DNA of 23,894 nt, taken from IMG/VR virus record IMGVR_UViG_3300038760_000037, positions 1 to 23,894 of that record; one strand, given 5' to 3'. Each line of letters begins with the position of its first letter. Position 1 is the first letter of the stretch. A model generated the notes under the pieces. That model worked only from the letters and a program-made list of their open reading frames with translations, searched no databases and was not told the DNA's origin. This DNA comes from a virus. The translations under genes were made by a program, and so were the position numbers. Shown here piece by piece: positions 2,886 through 22,084 of the stretch.

Positions 2886-3280
2886 GCATAAAAATTGACC
2901 AAGCATTCGTGCAGTCTTTTGTAGATGGCTCTTTTAGCATTCCAGTTAATTACGAAAATATGCCTTACACACCTGTATCGGGTACAGCGTATGCGGAGCT
3001 TATAAACATACCAAACCCTATAGATTCTATGACTCTCTCTGATATGAACGAGACAAGTGGAATTTTTAGAGTTATCTTGCGCTATCCTATAGACGGCGGG
3101 GCGATTGCTCCAAAGACTAAAGCAGAGGAAATTATGGCGCATTACCCAATTGGGAGTAGCGTTGCATATTCTGGACAATCTGCGACAATACGCTCAGTAA
3201 GCCGCCAAGCAGGAACCGTAATGGAAGCTTGGTACACAATTGTCGTTTCGATACGATATATTTCATTTATAACGAGGTGA
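2882..3280 (+). CDS. Tail terminator-like protein (DUF4128 type)
   Basis: 132 residues. The N-terminal helix (IKIDQAFVQSFVDG) is followed by PVNYENMPYTP, a strand with YAELINIPN, a central GIFRVILRYPI strand and an AEEIMAHYPIGSSV helix. This order is that of the DUF4128 / tail-terminator family (lambda gpU analogues), which cap the tail tube and set its junction with the head. The gene lies directly before the tube protein, where that function is normally encoded. Its ATG overlaps the previous stop. Confidence 0.7.
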   Translation: MSIKIDQAFVQSFVDGSFSIPVNYENMPYTPVSGTAYAELINIPNPIDSMTLSDMNETSGIFRVILRYPIDGGAIAPKTKAEEIMAHYPIGSSVAYSGQSATIRSVSRQAGTVMEAWYTIVVSIRYISFITR

Positions 3281-3283
3281 TTT

Positions 3284-3727
3284 ATGCCTGATACAGTACA
3301 GACCCTTGTCGAAACCACGATTGGTGTTTCGGCTTCTTTACCCGCAACTTTTGATGACGCAGGTTATGGCGCTCTTACTTTTACTACTGTTGGTCAAGTA
3401 ACTGATTGGACTCCTGGTGGTCAAGTGTACAATGTTGTAACGAGCAACCCTATTGCTCAACGCAGCACTGATAAGTACAAAGGTACTTTCAATAACGGCG
3501 CAGATTCAATTACGGTAAACCGTGATGATGACGATGCCGGACAAGTTCTTGTTCTCGCAGCTCTAGCAGCGGATACAGATTATTCTTTCGAGGTTACATA
3601 CCGAGACGGAACAATTGACTATTTCACTGGTAAGGTTGTTTCTTTTGACACTGTCGCTGGGGGCGCAGACTCAATAGTTCAAAGGACTATTAGTTTGGAG
3701 CGCACTCGTTCGACAGTTACTGCATAA
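3284..3727 (+). CDS. Major tail tube protein
   Basis: 147 residues, almost wholly beta and Thr/Val/Asp-rich. Segments include TTVGQVTDWTPGGQVYN near the N-terminus, a YKGTFNNG hairpin, and FTGKVVSFDTVAGGADSIVQ followed by a final strand ISLERTRSTV. Conserved 'F.G.V..' and C-terminal 'QRT.SLE.T' segments are typical of siphovirus tube subunits. GAGGTGA 4 bases before the ATG is a strong ribosome-binding site, fitting high expression. It lies between the tail terminator and the chaperones, the standard place for the tube gene. Confidence 0.75.
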   Translation: MPDTVQTLVETTIGVSASLPATFDDAGYGALTFTTVGQVTDWTPGGQVYNVVTSNPIAQRSTDKYKGTFNNGADSITVNRDDDDAGQVLVLAALAADTDYSFEVTYRDGTIDYFTGKVVSFDTVAGGADSIVQRTISLERTRSTVTA

Positions 3728-17274: not shown

Positions 17275-17462
17275 TTTTTAGTCCCATTTTCACCCATGCG
17301 TTTTGTAAACTCGCTCTTTCTGCCCCATTCGGGGTCTACGGTATCTGAGTAAGTTTGCCCTCGCATTACTTTGATTTTACCGCCTACCTCTAGGTAGCGT
17401 TTAGTGTCACGCTCTAGCTGTTGGCGCAGCTCTTCTTTTTCTGCGTCTATAGTGCTACGCAT
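17271..17462 (-). CDS. Small basic/charged protein, function unknown
   Basis: 63 residues. An N-terminal coiled helix, DAEKEELRQQLERDTKRY, is followed by a short strand segment (GGKIKVMRGQ) and a charged end. AGGAA lies 8 bases before the ATG. The gene overlaps its neighbours by 4 and 8 bases, so it belongs to the same translation unit. No motif. Confidence 0.6.
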   Translation of the reverse strand: MRSTIDAEKEELRQQLERDTKRYLEVGGKIKVMRGQTYSDTVDPEWGRKSEFTKRMGENGTKK

Positions 17463-17670
17463 CGCTAATTCCTAAGGCGATAAATTCGTCTACCGTATAA
17501 CCGAAGATTTCTGCCAGTTGCTGAACTTTATGGATTGATGCCGACTTCTGTCTGCGCGTGTAGTAAACCGCCTGACGCGATTCTCTGAGCTTATTGGCTA
17601 GTTCAACTGTAGTCATTCTTTTAACGTGCTGTGCTTCTATGATACTTGCACCGATATTTGCTGTTTGCAT
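17455..17670 (-). CDS. Small HTH (Cro/XRE-like) DNA-binding regulator
   Basis: 71 residues. Residues about 20-64 hold a helix-turn-helix of XRE/Cro type: TTVELANKLRESRQAVYYTR with recognition-helix Q33-A-V-Y, then SASIHKVQQLAEIFGYTVDEF, the usual fourth and fifth helices. AAGGAC precedes the ATG by 8 bases. It has no ligand or multimerisation domain, like phage Cro-type repressors. An inverted repeat 28 bases upstream (17699-17719) is a candidate operator. It would control part of the minus-strand operon, or itself. Confidence 0.8.
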   Translation of the reverse strand: MQTANIGASIIEAQHVKRMTTVELANKLRESRQAVYYTRRQKSASIHKVQQLAEIFGYTVDEFIALGISDA

Positions 17671-19253: not shown

Positions 19254-19458
19254 CAATATCGCGTATCTGGCTTTCCTGATTTTGTCTGTCAGCTCGCGTT
19301 CTGTTTCCATCGTCTTTCTCCAAGTGTTCTTCCATCAATGCCATTAGCTTTGCGGCTATCGCTACAGAGTCAAAGTCTTTAGGTGTTGTGTAAAAGAAGC
19401 CTTTATTATCATCTCTTTGGTCGGGTGATGTAAACCTTTCCTTTGCATCTATTATCAT
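19243..19458 (-). CDS. Small protein, function unknown
   Basis: 71 residues. The middle has FFYTTPKDFDSVAIAAKLMALMEEHL, with a short aromatic strand and one amphipathic helix. The C-terminus is polar and probably disordered. AAAGGAG lies 7 bases before its ATG, and it overlaps the ERF stop by 4 bases (ATGA), indicating coupled expression with the annealase. It might be an ERF partner, by position only. Confidence 0.65.
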   Translation of the reverse strand: MIIDAKERFTSPDQRDDNKGFFYTTPKDFDSVAIAAKLMALMEEHLEKDDGNRTRADRQNQESQIRDIDEP

Positions 19459-20042
19459 TTTTTTACTCCTTTCAGTTTATTAATCTTGTCGTACACTGGT
19501 CGGAACTGATTGCTTTGCAGGTGTTCTAGTTGAGCTATGCCATAAGCGTCCATAAGCTGCTCCTTGAGCTTTTCATCTCCCGCTAATAGATTCACTAGGG
19601 CTTTTACTTGGTCGCTTGTAATCGCGTCTACGGGCTTCTTAGGGGCTTCCGCTGCGAGCTGCATGGCATTAGCGTCATCGTCTGTCTGTGGAATAGCAAA
19701 TATAGCTGCGAGCGCGTATCTGCGAAAATAAGAAATTAAGGAGCCGTATTCTTGTGGACCTGCTTTAACAGGCTTGATGCCGAACGATTCTTCTATCCAC
19801 TGCCCTGACTTGTGCATGACTCGCGTGGTGATTGCTACGCCTTGCTCGTTGTTGATAGGGAACTGAACTACGGATAAGCCGTTATCGCTTAAAGGTTGCT
19901 TAATAACATCACCGATAGATGCTAGGTCAGCGAATGACGATTTAAAGTGCGGGTTTGAGCTGTTCTTATACGCAGCACCCATCTGCCCTTGGGCGATAGC
20001 CATAGCTGCGGCTAACTCATTGATTTCATTAGATGTTTTCAT
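19455..20042 (-). CDS. erf: ERF-family single-strand annealing protein
   Basis: 195 residues. The ERF core lies at about 5-130: AIAQGQMGAAYKNSSNPHFK, SFADLASIGDVIKQPLSDNGLS, VITTRV-type strand (AITTRVMHKSGQWIEE) and the signature GSLISYFRRYALAAIFAIP. 'P..YGS..SY.RRYAL....' is the family hallmark. A C-terminal helical domain (about 135-195) follows. ERF forms rings on single strands and anneals complementary DNA in phage recombination or circularisation. It is the first gene of the minus-strand operon; CAGGAGAAGG lies upstream of the ATG. It is somewhat shorter than P22 Erf. Confidence 0.92.
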   Translation of the reverse strand: MKTSNEINELAAAMAIAQGQMGAAYKNSSNPHFKSSFADLASIGDVIKQPLSDNGLSVVQFPINNEQGVAITTRVMHKSGQWIEESFGIKPVKAGPQEYGSLISYFRRYALAAIFAIPQTDDDANAMQLAAEAPKKPVDAITSDQVKALVNLLAGDEKLKEQLMDAYGIAQLEHLQSNQFRPVYDKINKLKGVKK

Positions 20043-20060
20043 TATGCCTTCTCCTGTAAT

Positions 20061-20071
20061 GTCAAAATGAC
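20061..20071. promoter_or_regulatory. Small inverted repeat GTCA-N3-TGAC before erf
   Basis: The 11-bp dyad GTCAAAATGAC lies between the predicted minus promoter and the erf start, a suitable place for a repressor half-site pair. Short dyads of this length also occur by chance. Confidence 0.3.
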
Positions 20072-20079
20072 TAGGACAA

Positions 20080-20107
20080 GGTATACTATTCTTTTACAGA
20101 AGTAAAA
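20080..20107 (-). promoter_or_regulatory. Predicted promoter for the erf operon
   Basis: On the minus strand, TTTTAC (20107-20102) and TATACC (20085-20080) are 16 bases apart, each matching the sigma70 boxes at 4 of 6 positions or better. They point toward erf, whose ATG is 38 bases past the -10. It is divergent from the + strand promoter at 20130-20159. Confidence 0.5.
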
Positions 20108-20129
20108 CGATTTATTTATGGTTTAAGAG

Positions 20130-20159
20130 TTTACACCACGATGGGAAAAGTATTTAATA
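20130..20159 (+). promoter_or_regulatory. Sigma70-type promoter for the structured RNA, copy 1
   Basis: TTTACA (20130-20135) and TTTAAT (20153-20158, inside TATTTAATA) are 17 bases apart; each matches consensus at 5 of 6 positions. The predicted start, about 7 bases past the -10, is near 20165, precisely where the long RNA helix begins. The same architecture, TTTACA-N15-TATTTAATA, recurs at 21748-21777. Confidence 0.65.
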
Positions 20160-20164
20160 GGTAA

Positions 20165-20453
20165 GTCGGTGGTGTTGGCGCACCTAAAGTCCGATATAGA
20201 GCGAGGAAGATACGGTCACCCGACTTAGGTAATCTTATCACGCCTCCCTTCTATATCCCTAGCACCTAATCTACCGACACTGAACCAGTGGGCTTCAGGC
20301 TTGGGAATAATTAAACCCAAGAGACGGCGACACTTGTGAGCGAAAGAGCCTCAACCGTTAATGCTTAATACGGTTGAATAGATACCCTATTCGATACACT
20401 GGTAATCAGTTAGCGCTATAGAAAATCCAAAAAGGGCGTGAAGCGCCTTTAAG
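20165..20453 (+). ncRNA. Candidate structured RNA of about 290 nt, or long structured leader
   Basis: This is the main part of the 442-base gene-free stretch 20043-20484. Domain 1 (20165-20278) is a rod. Its outer helix 20165-20181/20262-20278 has 13 pairs and 4 mismatches. An inner helix GATATAGA 20193-20200/TCTATATC 20250-20257 continues to GAGG 20203/CCTC 20243. The tip has AAGAT 20207/ATCTT 20232 and GGTC/GACT around ACCC. Domain 2 is closed by ACCAGTG 20284-20290 with CACTGGT 20397-20403. It holds GGCT/AGCC, CTTGGG 20300/CCCAAG 20316 and TCAACCGT 20351/ACGGTTGA 20370 helices. A final hairpin, AAGGGCG/CGCCTTT at about 20433-20451, has only a short T-run. G-U pairs at 20171/20272 and 20214/20225 favour the + strand. 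The transcript may end there or read into the gene at 20485. No known RNA family was recognised. Confidence 0.55.
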
Positions 20454-20484
20454 GTTACTTTGCTTAAAATTTAAGGAGATTGTA

Positions 20485-20736
20485 ATGAACGATAAGAATG
20501 AACCTAGAATGGAAGATGAGTACAAGCACAGTCTTTTAGTGGTGACTATTATTGAGTTGAAAACTATCTTAAGTTTATTAAAACCTGAGAAAAAAAGATT
20601 ACGCGCTAAATTAAAAGACGCAGATTTTCAACTTCCTGAAACTGTTTCGGTAGTTCATAACTTGAATATAGTGAACAAGTTAGAAAACTTAATACTTGAT
20701 GACTTAGAATATAGAAGACAAGAAAATAAAGCGTAG
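20485..20736 (+). CDS. Small early protein, function unknown
   Basis: 83 residues with AAGGAGA 8 bases before the ATG. Helical: YKHSLLVVTIIELKTILSLL, then a basic stretch PEKKRLRAKLKDADF and a C-terminal helix IVNKLENLILDDLEYRR. No family recognised. It is the first + gene after the candidate structured RNA and may be expressed from the promoter at 20130. Its TAG is part of a 16-base motif repeated after another gene (20734 and 22385). Confidence 0.6.
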   Translation: MNDKNEPRMEDEYKHSLLVVTIIELKTILSLLKPEKKRLRAKLKDADFQLPETVSVVHNLNIVNKLENLILDDLEYRRQENKA

Positions 20737-20790: not shown

Positions 20791-20795
20791 CTGCC

Positions 20796-20839
20796 GGCTT
20801 ACTTGCAGCTTACTTGCGGCTTACTTGCGGCTTACTTGC
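20796..20839. repeat. Four tandem 11-bp repeats (GGCTTACTTGC), possible iterons
   Basis: Units at 20796-20806, 20807-20817 (first base A), 20818-20828 and 20829-20839 are otherwise identical and abut without spacers. A period of 11 bp places each copy on nearly the same helix face. The array is 20 bases before a small gene and 200 bases before the O-like/P-like replication pair, and next to AT-rich DNA. This is how phage replication origins are often built; a regulator-binding array is the alternative. Confidence 0.65.
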
Positions 20840-20858
20840 AATTTAAAAGGAGATAGCA

Positions 20859-21038
20859 ATGGAAAACTTAACAAACGAGCATAAACAGATTCTTATATCT
20901 TTACTAGAAGTGGCTTTAGATAACCTTATTACAGATATGGAAGGAGCTAATTTAACTCATGATGGATTTACAGCGGTAAGTAGCCATCATGAAAAAATGA
21001 CTTTTATTTATAGCGAATTGAAGGGTGAGCAAAAGTGA
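20859..21038 (+). CDS. Small protein before the replication genes
   Basis: 59 residues, below usual length cut-offs. AAAGGAGATAG precedes the ATG, a strong ribosome-binding site, and its TGA overlaps the next GTG start (GTGA). It contains NEHKQILISLLEVALDNLI and HHEKMTFIYSELKG, an all-helical layout. No family recognised. Coupling to the O-like gene implies a link with replication. Confidence 0.65.
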   Translation: MENLTNEHKQILISLLEVALDNLITDMEGANLTHDGFTAVSSHHEKMTFIYSELKGEQK

Positions 21039-21442
21039 AAAGAAGAAAATACCCTGAACACTTTGAGAGACTATGGCAGGCTTTCGATACTGACTACGGT
21101 GAAAAAGGCAGTAAGACAAAGGCACACGAAGTCTTTGTTGCTATGGAGATAGACTCTGACGATGTAGATTTCATTATAGATAACTACACGAAACAACGCA
21201 TGGCAAAAGAAATACAAAGAATGCGTGGCGAGTTTTCACCTAATTTTCAGCACATGGAAAGGTATCTTAAAAATGAACGATTCGATGACCAAATCAGTCT
21301 CAACTCTTATCAACAAAAATCAATCACAAAGTCAGACCAATCAGACGCAGCGCTCAGGCAATATCTCACAGGAGGTGATGGCAAAGGGATGGAGAATGCT
21401 GCAAGCGATGAAGAAGGCATCGGACCCAGTTGGCTCAACTGA
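21035..21442 (+). CDS. O-like replication initiation / replisome organiser-type protein
   Basis: 135 residues from GTG 21035, coupled to the upstream gene. The segment YPEHFERLWQAFDTDYGEKG, then SKTKAHEVF, a helix with EIQRMRGEFSPNFQHMERYL and a final ERFDDQ reproduces the C-terminal module shared by many phage replication proteins: 'F..FW.AYP...GK..A...W.......F......WL..ERW.D'. The tail (about 88-135) is polar and ends in GIGPSWLN. The usual N-terminal winged-helix DNA-binding domain is missing, so another protein would have to bind the origin, or this is a helicase-loading partner. It overlaps the P-like gene in another frame. Confidence 0.6.
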   Translation: MKRRKYPEHFERLWQAFDTDYGEKGSKTKAHEVFVAMEIDSDDVDFIIDNYTKQRMAKEIQRMRGEFSPNFQHMERYLKNERFDDQISLNSYQQKSITKSDQSDAALRQYLTGGDGKGMENAASDEEGIGPSWLN

Positions 21443-21683
21443 GTTCAAGGTCTGGTATCGCTCGCTTACTAATGACTTCACCGAGGAGGAGTTTATGAAC
21501 GGCATTAAAGCAGCGCAAGACCATACCAAGTTCCTAGACCTGCCCAACTTTAGACAGCTGTGCCGACTGACCAAGAGTCATAGGTCACACGCTATATTCG
21601 CTATCGAAAAGAAGGAAAAGATGCTCACAGGGGCTGAATTACGCGCTAAAATAGCTGAAATGCGTAAAAATCTTAATATTTAA
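21273..21683 (+). CDS. P-like helicase-loader-type replication protein
   Basis: 136 residues if it starts at ATG 21273 (AAAGG about 10 bases upstream); ATG 21378 has GGAGG but only 2 bases away, too close. The frame opens even earlier. The N-terminal about 35 residues are Ser/Gln/Asn-rich. The core is VMAKGWRMLQAMKKASDP, FKVWYRSLTNDFTEEEFMNG and LDLPNFRQLCR. 'W...L.dft.eef..gi..a..h..y..lP.Fr..cr' is the pattern of P-type DnaB loaders. The C-terminus is basic and helical (GAELRAKIAEMRKNL). Following an O-like gene strengthens the case. It shares up to 170 bases with it in a different frame. Confidence 0.65.
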   Translation: MNDSMTKSVSTLINKNQSQSQTNQTQRSGNISQEVMAKGWRMLQAMKKASDPVGSTEFKVWYRSLTNDFTEEEFMNGIKAAQDHTKFLDLPNFRQLCRLTKSHRSHAIFAIEKKEKMLTGAELRAKIAEMRKNLNI

Positions 21684-22040: not shown

Positions 22041-22048
22041 AAATCACC

Positions 22049-22064
22049 GCCCCCTTCGGGGGGC
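22049..22064 (+). promoter_or_regulatory. GC hairpin with UUCG loop after the small gene
   Basis: GCCCCC (22049-22054) and GGGGGC (22059-22064) enclose the loop TTCG. No U-tract follows (ATCAAGGAGG instead), so it is more likely an mRNA 3' end protector or part of the structured leader that starts 20 bases on than an intrinsic terminator. Confidence 0.6.
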
Positions 22065-22084
22065 ATCAAGGAGGGCATTGAAAA

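Follow-up and report, generated by a model that had tools for sequence, protein, structure and literature searches.

What is carried by the 442 bases that separate two divergent genes in the IMG/VR virus record analysed here, whose 23,894 bases are hereafter referred to as the window? The leftward neighbour of this region is an ERF recombinase gene (19455-20042, minus strand; phrog_2324) and its rightward neighbour an open reading frame (ORF) starting at 20485, and the gap between them proved to be the gene-free control region that had been described in an initial annotation of the sequence, as no plausible gene was found inside it. A near-consensus, sigma-70-like promoter is predicted on the plus strand at 20130-20158, again at the place originally proposed, with a -35 element TTTACA (20130-20135), a 17-bp spacer and a -10 element TTTAAT (20153-20158), while the predicted start, G 20165, lies six bases past the latter. 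The -10 element is kept in nearly all of 11 aligned relatives and the -35 element reads TTTAC(A/T) in most of them; the predicted start begins an invariant GTCGG that is conserved at +1 in the relatives, the six bases in front of it being variable. The predicted promoter start coincides with the first base of the structured RNA described below. Further upstream, two palindromes, GTCAAAATGAC and CTTTTACAGAAGTAAA (20061-20071 and 20090-20105, respectively), are kept in relatives amid diverged surroundings, and in this divergent control region they probably act as operators.

The plus strand of 20165-20453 folds at -87.0 kcal/mol, compared to -71.3 +/- 4.8 kcal/mol for shuffled controls (z -3.3; 0/200), while the minus strand yields a z of -2.1; when folded separately on the plus strand, the 5' domain and the second domain are associated with z values of -2.7 and -3.2, respectively. 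The 5' domain (20165-20278, plus strand) had been read as a long imperfect rod, and while a folded domain is indeed present, it is more elaborate than a simple rod, consisting of an end helix (20165-20169/20274-20278), a covarying hairpin (20171-20174/20181-20184) and a variable rod (20193-20199/20251-20257). In this domain, which is recognisable in closer relatives only, 96% of cells are paired and two-sided changes number 12, as opposed to 4.0 in shuffled alignments; the hairpin, for example, occurs as GGUG/CACC, GGCA/UGCC, GGCG/CGCC and GGCU/AGCC. The GUCGG at 20165-20169 pairs equally well with two conserved copies of CCGAC, at 20220-20224 and 20274-20278, and the two mutually exclusive helices that result could constitute a switch.

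The first relatives of this region were obtained by means of an ERF protein search, which returned three contigs sharing it, and further relatives by scanning viral contigs for conserved DNA motifs taken from the RNA. As no neighbouring gene contributed to these motifs, the gene context of the motif-found records is unselected. A covariance model, designated R1, was built on the conserved core (20276-20423, plus strand; 147 positions, 30 pairs) and identifies 19 IMG/VR phage records with scores of 111-168 bits, the next best match scoring 15.5 bits. All 19 records are metagenomic and many are fragments, and the phages concerned are uncultured and of approximately 30-40 kb; 14 of the 19 form one related group, so that the family comprises about six independent lineages.

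Covariation within this family is extensive. In the model alignment, with 17 distinct rows, 97.3% of pair cells hold standard pairs and 24 of the 30 core pairs show two-sided compensatory changes in some member, the total of 106 two-sided cells comparing to 24 +/- 4 in shuffles and at most 17 in slid controls. Since the model alignment was fitted to the model, a plain MAFFT alignment was also counted, and this gave 93.5% paired cells and 88 two-sided cells versus 21. Furthermore, wobble cells are of the G-U type in 29 cases and of the A-C type in four (p about 1e-5; without the most biased pair, 19 versus three), from which it follows that the functional form is the plus-strand RNA rather than DNA or the minus strand. 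At the level of sequence, covariation thus proves a conserved plus-strand RNA, and together with the fold excess and the conserved predicted promoter it bears out the original suggestion of a functional RNA with a promoter of its own and with G-U pairs that work on the plus strand only. Two outcomes named beforehand as refuting that suggestion, a lack of excess folding energy and a lack of covarying pairs in relatives, are both contradicted. The core also changes more slowly than the neighbouring genes: between the window and relative L004 its identity amounts to 93.2%, compared to 59.1% for the ERF gene and 68.4% for the lambda-O-like gene discussed below, the corresponding values for L049 being 93.9%, 58.6% and 69.1%. 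Judged by these identities, no other DNA of the region is as conserved as the core.

Two helices, two hairpins and two almost invariant single-stranded junctions make up the core, one helix closing it and the other, inner helix carrying the first of the hairpins. The closing helix, P1 (20279-20290 paired with 20397-20410), contains the stem ACCAGTG/CACTGGT (20284-20290/20397-20403) that had been picked out from the window alone, and all 11 of its 11 counted pairs covary; for example, CCAGTG/CACTGG is replaced by GGTTGTG/CACGACC in L050. The inner helix, P2 (20291-20295 paired with 20346-20350), was found from the relatives and adds a conserved helix to those proposed earlier, its GGCUU/GAGCC being represented by GGCAU/AUGCC in L054, GGCGC/GCGCC in L202 and GGGCAC/GUGCCC in L201. 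P2 encloses hairpin H1, CUUGGG-AAUAAUUAAA-CCCAAG (20300-20321), in which 99% of cells are paired and three pairs show two-sided changes, while hairpin H2, UCAACCGU...ACGGUUGA (20351-20377), is 98% paired and all eight of its pairs change on both sides somewhere. These two represent the conserved members of three inner hairpins that had been put forward. The third, GAATAG/CTATTC (approximately 20376-20393), was rejected because it is not conserved, and it falls within a nearly invariant single-stranded junction. This junction, J3 (AUAGANACCNUAUUCGAUAC, 20378-20396), and its counterpart J2 (AGACGGCGAYACUUGUGAGCGAAA, 20322-20345; nearly invariant in all rows) are both unpaired in the consensus. 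A candidate pseudoknot between 20327-20329 and 20414-20416 displays weak covariation, with one pair showing GC, AU and GU types. Beyond the core, the predicted final stem forms a 3' hairpin, AAGGGCGU-GAA-GCGCCUUU (stem 20432-20450), which is followed by a conserved AAGGUU, the whole element spanning 20432-20456; its form persists in several relatives, and in L002, L049 and L195 it is rebuilt from different bases.

The initial annotation recognised no known family, and database searches agree with that assessment. At the gathering threshold, none of 4227 Rfam families matched the whole window, nor did any match 20040-20490 at E values of up to 10; L201 likewise returned no match, while L202 and L057 returned sub-threshold, chance-level matches only. 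No 6S-like Rfam relative was found, and the Rfam profiles of ROOL and GOLLD, tested at the gathering threshold, were without match in the window and in six relatives. ROOL and GOLLD are also structured phage RNAs of unknown function, counted among the ornate RNAs, yet they are unrelated to the present RNA by Rfam search, and they measure 659 nt in one member and often more than 800 nt (PMC12286853). The present RNA, in contrast, precedes replication genes and lies near a tRNA in one member only, L057, where a tRNA-His gene and, behind it, an unassigned stretch that has pairing ends and a T-arm-like GGTTCGAGTCC (together 3025-3420) lie just upstream of the RNA; the latter stretch is perhaps a degenerate or unusual tRNA-like element. 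DNA similarity searches of GenBank phages and plasmids revealed no relatives, a pattern scan of bacterial genome contigs gave chance hits only among the matches listed, and no hit to R1 was obtained among 369 gammaproteobacterial and 289 alphaproteobacterial genomes, which is a weak negative in view of strict filters and the lack of a positive control. The RNA is undescribed in the open-access literature searched, and it represents a previously undescribed family that belongs to no known family tested.

What, then, does the RNA accompany? The gene directly 3' of it varies, being the 83-residue ORF at 20485 in the window (for whose protein no relatives were found) and elsewhere a different short ORF or the replication gene. 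One of the roles first considered, that of a leader dedicated to the gene at 20485, was dropped because this slot varies while the RNA stays, relatives keeping the RNA with other genes or none at that position. The constant companion lies further downstream: in all 19 RNA-bearing records the C-terminal, replisome-recruiting part of an initiator is encoded alone, on the same strand. In lambda O, the N-terminal half binds the origin iterons and the C-terminal half contacts P. The window encodes a stand-alone C-terminal domain of a lambda-O-type initiator (21035-21442, plus strand; 135 residues), which is identified by profile matches, lacks a DNA-binding domain and matches only positions 173-273 of phrog_9474 (of 288) and 173-294 of phrog_270 (of 383). 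A profile of this stand-alone domain matches 18 of the 19 records with the RNA and has no hit in the 24 ERF records that lack it, while the nineteenth RNA-bearing record, L202, encodes the C-terminal part of a different initiator family (phrog_1032, positions 188-251 of 281). From these profile matches, the RNA appears to be paired with at least two distinct initiator-domain families.

The truncation is consistent across the family. Several RNA-bearing records match the recruiting domain, at phrog_270 positions 138-327 or phrog_9474 positions 173-273, and the initiator frames of RNA-bearing records are of 120-177 residues, with the protein beginning with the C-terminal domain; their matches to phrog_270 run from position 138 on, whereas those in RNA-free records are nearly all N-terminal (29-172) and mostly belong to frames of 220-447 residues. 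HTH_36, the initiator winged helix, was detected in none of 16 RNA-bearing records compared to 13 of 16 ERF-matched RNA-free records tested; the comparison set is defined by another gene, ERF, and several of the records are fragments. The corresponding Fisher p of 3e-6 assumes independent records and, by ignoring kinship, overstates the certainty. Similarly, Phage_rep_O was found in none of the 16 RNA-bearing records as opposed to three RNA-free records, and a phage-encoded DnaB was found in none of the 16 RNA-bearing records. In cultured phages, homologues of the L057 and L202 domains form the C-terminal part of full-length initiators of approximately 262-330 residues, the annotations of which read HTH, winged-helix, O-like or replisome organizer, and R1 had no match around those genes. 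The RNA's constant partnership with an initiator devoid of its DNA-binding half represents the strongest clue to its role.

The structure of the O-like domain was predicted with moderate confidence (pLDDT 69.6), and a fold search against viral models returned weak matches, several of which are named replisome organizer; comparison with PDB folds gave Z scores of about 3 or less, including 4pqk (C-terminal domain of a DNA binding protein; Z 2.6), and was too weak to be relied on, and a PDB sequence search gave implausible matches only. The O-like ORF overlaps, by up to 218 bases and in a different frame, a downstream ORF (21225-21683, plus strand), an arrangement that is conserved in L041 and L049. 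No convincing database match was obtained for the latter ORF; by eye it possibly resembles a helicase loader of the lambda P type. Between ORFs further downstream, a G+C-rich hairpin of the CGCCCCC/GGGGGCA type (22048-22065) was called as a minus-strand terminator in a scan, while its neighbours run rightward.

Because the RNA always lies upstream of an initiator without its DNA-gripping half, it may help to mark where copying of the genome begins. The reading that we favour, tentatively and on comparative grounds, is that the marking of the origin, otherwise the task of the absent DNA-binding domain, falls to the RNA or to its transcription. According to this proposal, a compact, cis-located RNA stands at the head of the rightward replication operon and most likely belongs to the replication-initiation machinery. 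The RNA, or an RNA-DNA hybrid arising from its transcription, would mark and open the origin in place of the winged-helix domain, after which the host DnaB helicase would be brought to the origin by the stand-alone C-terminal domain, perhaps in concert with the product of the overlapping downstream ORF. The RNA could act as a nascent transcript that binds this domain while still attached to its template, or it could form an R-loop or primer in the manner of ColE1; its position, strand, operon and invariant junctions fit the tethered-scaffold and R-loop options alike. The more specific version, in which the origin is specified by the RNA itself, with the nascent structured transcript replacing the DNA-binding half and bringing in the recruiting domain and the host helicase, is possible, and is put forward with greater reserve. 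Counterpoints to the proposed origin-marking role include that the association between the RNA and truncated initiators could result from shared descent, and that a small HTH regulator might supply origin binding instead. A gene for such a regulator is present in the window at 17455-17670, with similar genes in L201 and L202.

Known origins provide partial parallels for such a role. The ColE1 origin is opened by a transcript, RNA II, which is 550 nt long before hybrid formation (PMC5043065), compared to approximately 290 nt for the phage RNA. In both cases a structured transcript encoded in cis could open the origin where no origin-binding protein domain is at hand, yet no Rfam relation between the two was found and, unlike ColE1, the RNA-bearing phages still encode a recruiting protein domain. 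The lambda origin comprises O-binding iterons and an A+T-rich stretch and requires transcription (PMC3349717; PMC5043065). Its location within an early operon and its need for transcription are among the traits that it would share with the present system, as is the match of the downstream phage protein to the C-terminal part of O-type families; in contrast to lambda, the RNA-bearing phages are without the N-terminal DNA-binding domain or conserved iterons, and a conserved structured RNA is present instead. In or near the initiator gene, no conserved iterons common to the relatives were found. Neither measure of base composition located an origin: GC skew follows gene strand and does not turn at the RNA in L202 or L201, whose genes run one way, and A+T content rises only slightly after the core. 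Four tandem 11-bp repeats, GCTTACTTGCA (20795-20840), lie in the replication operon of the window, with a small ORF on either side, and are absent from relatives; these are possibly iterons or operators of this phage only.

Among the other explanations, the one that survives best is that of a cis-acting operon leader or antiterminator, which would modify RNA polymerase or control the rightward early operon, the truncated initiator then being a feature of the lineage that is not directly linked to the RNA; it is doubtful, although several observations are in its favour. The put element of phage HK022, a structured antitermination RNA that acts in cis, heads an early operon of that phage, and the present RNA is similarly placed as the first element of its operon, right after a conserved promoter. 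It keeps this place while the next gene changes, and the two exclusive partners of its 5' GUCGG are switch-like. However, put is far smaller, acts on polymerase and differs in sequence, and no plus-strand terminator-like site that would have to be overcome separates the RNA of the window from its replication genes, which weakens this explanation; it also leaves unexplained the absence of the initiator's DNA-binding domain in every carrier. A trans-acting small RNA, serving as a phage regulator or as a decoy for a host protein or RNA such as RNA polymerase, is unlikely: the extensive unpaired junctions, with their high conservation, hint at a binding surface, the downstream gene varies and the 3' hairpin could define an end, but no strong terminator was found after the RNA, an Rfam relative such as 6S is lacking, and in every carrier the RNA keeps to one strand and one position ahead of the same replication domain. 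Of the roles envisaged at the outset, antiterminator, small RNA and decoy are each possible, and nothing found points specifically to them. Still less probable is a ligand-sensing riboswitch or self-cleaving ribozyme within an operon leader, since, for all the resemblance of the three-way-junction layout, the approximately 45 nearly invariant unpaired bases and the candidate pseudoknot to known aptamers and ribozymes, Rfam yields no match to such classes and no expression platform is conserved by one gene, the directly downstream gene being variable. That the conserved unit is DNA, i.e., a cruciform or a single-stranded hairpin for primosome assembly, is very improbable in view of the plus-strand wobble bias and the predicted promoter start at the first structured base, even though the unit adjoins replication genes and palindromic elements are conserved in DNA too.

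The RNA family described here thus combines unusually strong comparative proof with the absence of known relatives and a constant genetic partner, and this combination provides a concrete, testable function, which is rare among orphan phage RNAs. What is new is the RNA class and its pairing with initiators that lack a DNA-binding half, while the mechanism would be near known kinds if it involves R-loop priming or leader control. Even as an operon leader, the RNA would add a structured class to phage early regulation and account for a conserved non-coding block in uncultured phages. If, on the other hand, it stands in for the origin-binding domain, it would represent a new way of starting DNA replication and a natural case of an RNA assuming the job of a protein domain.
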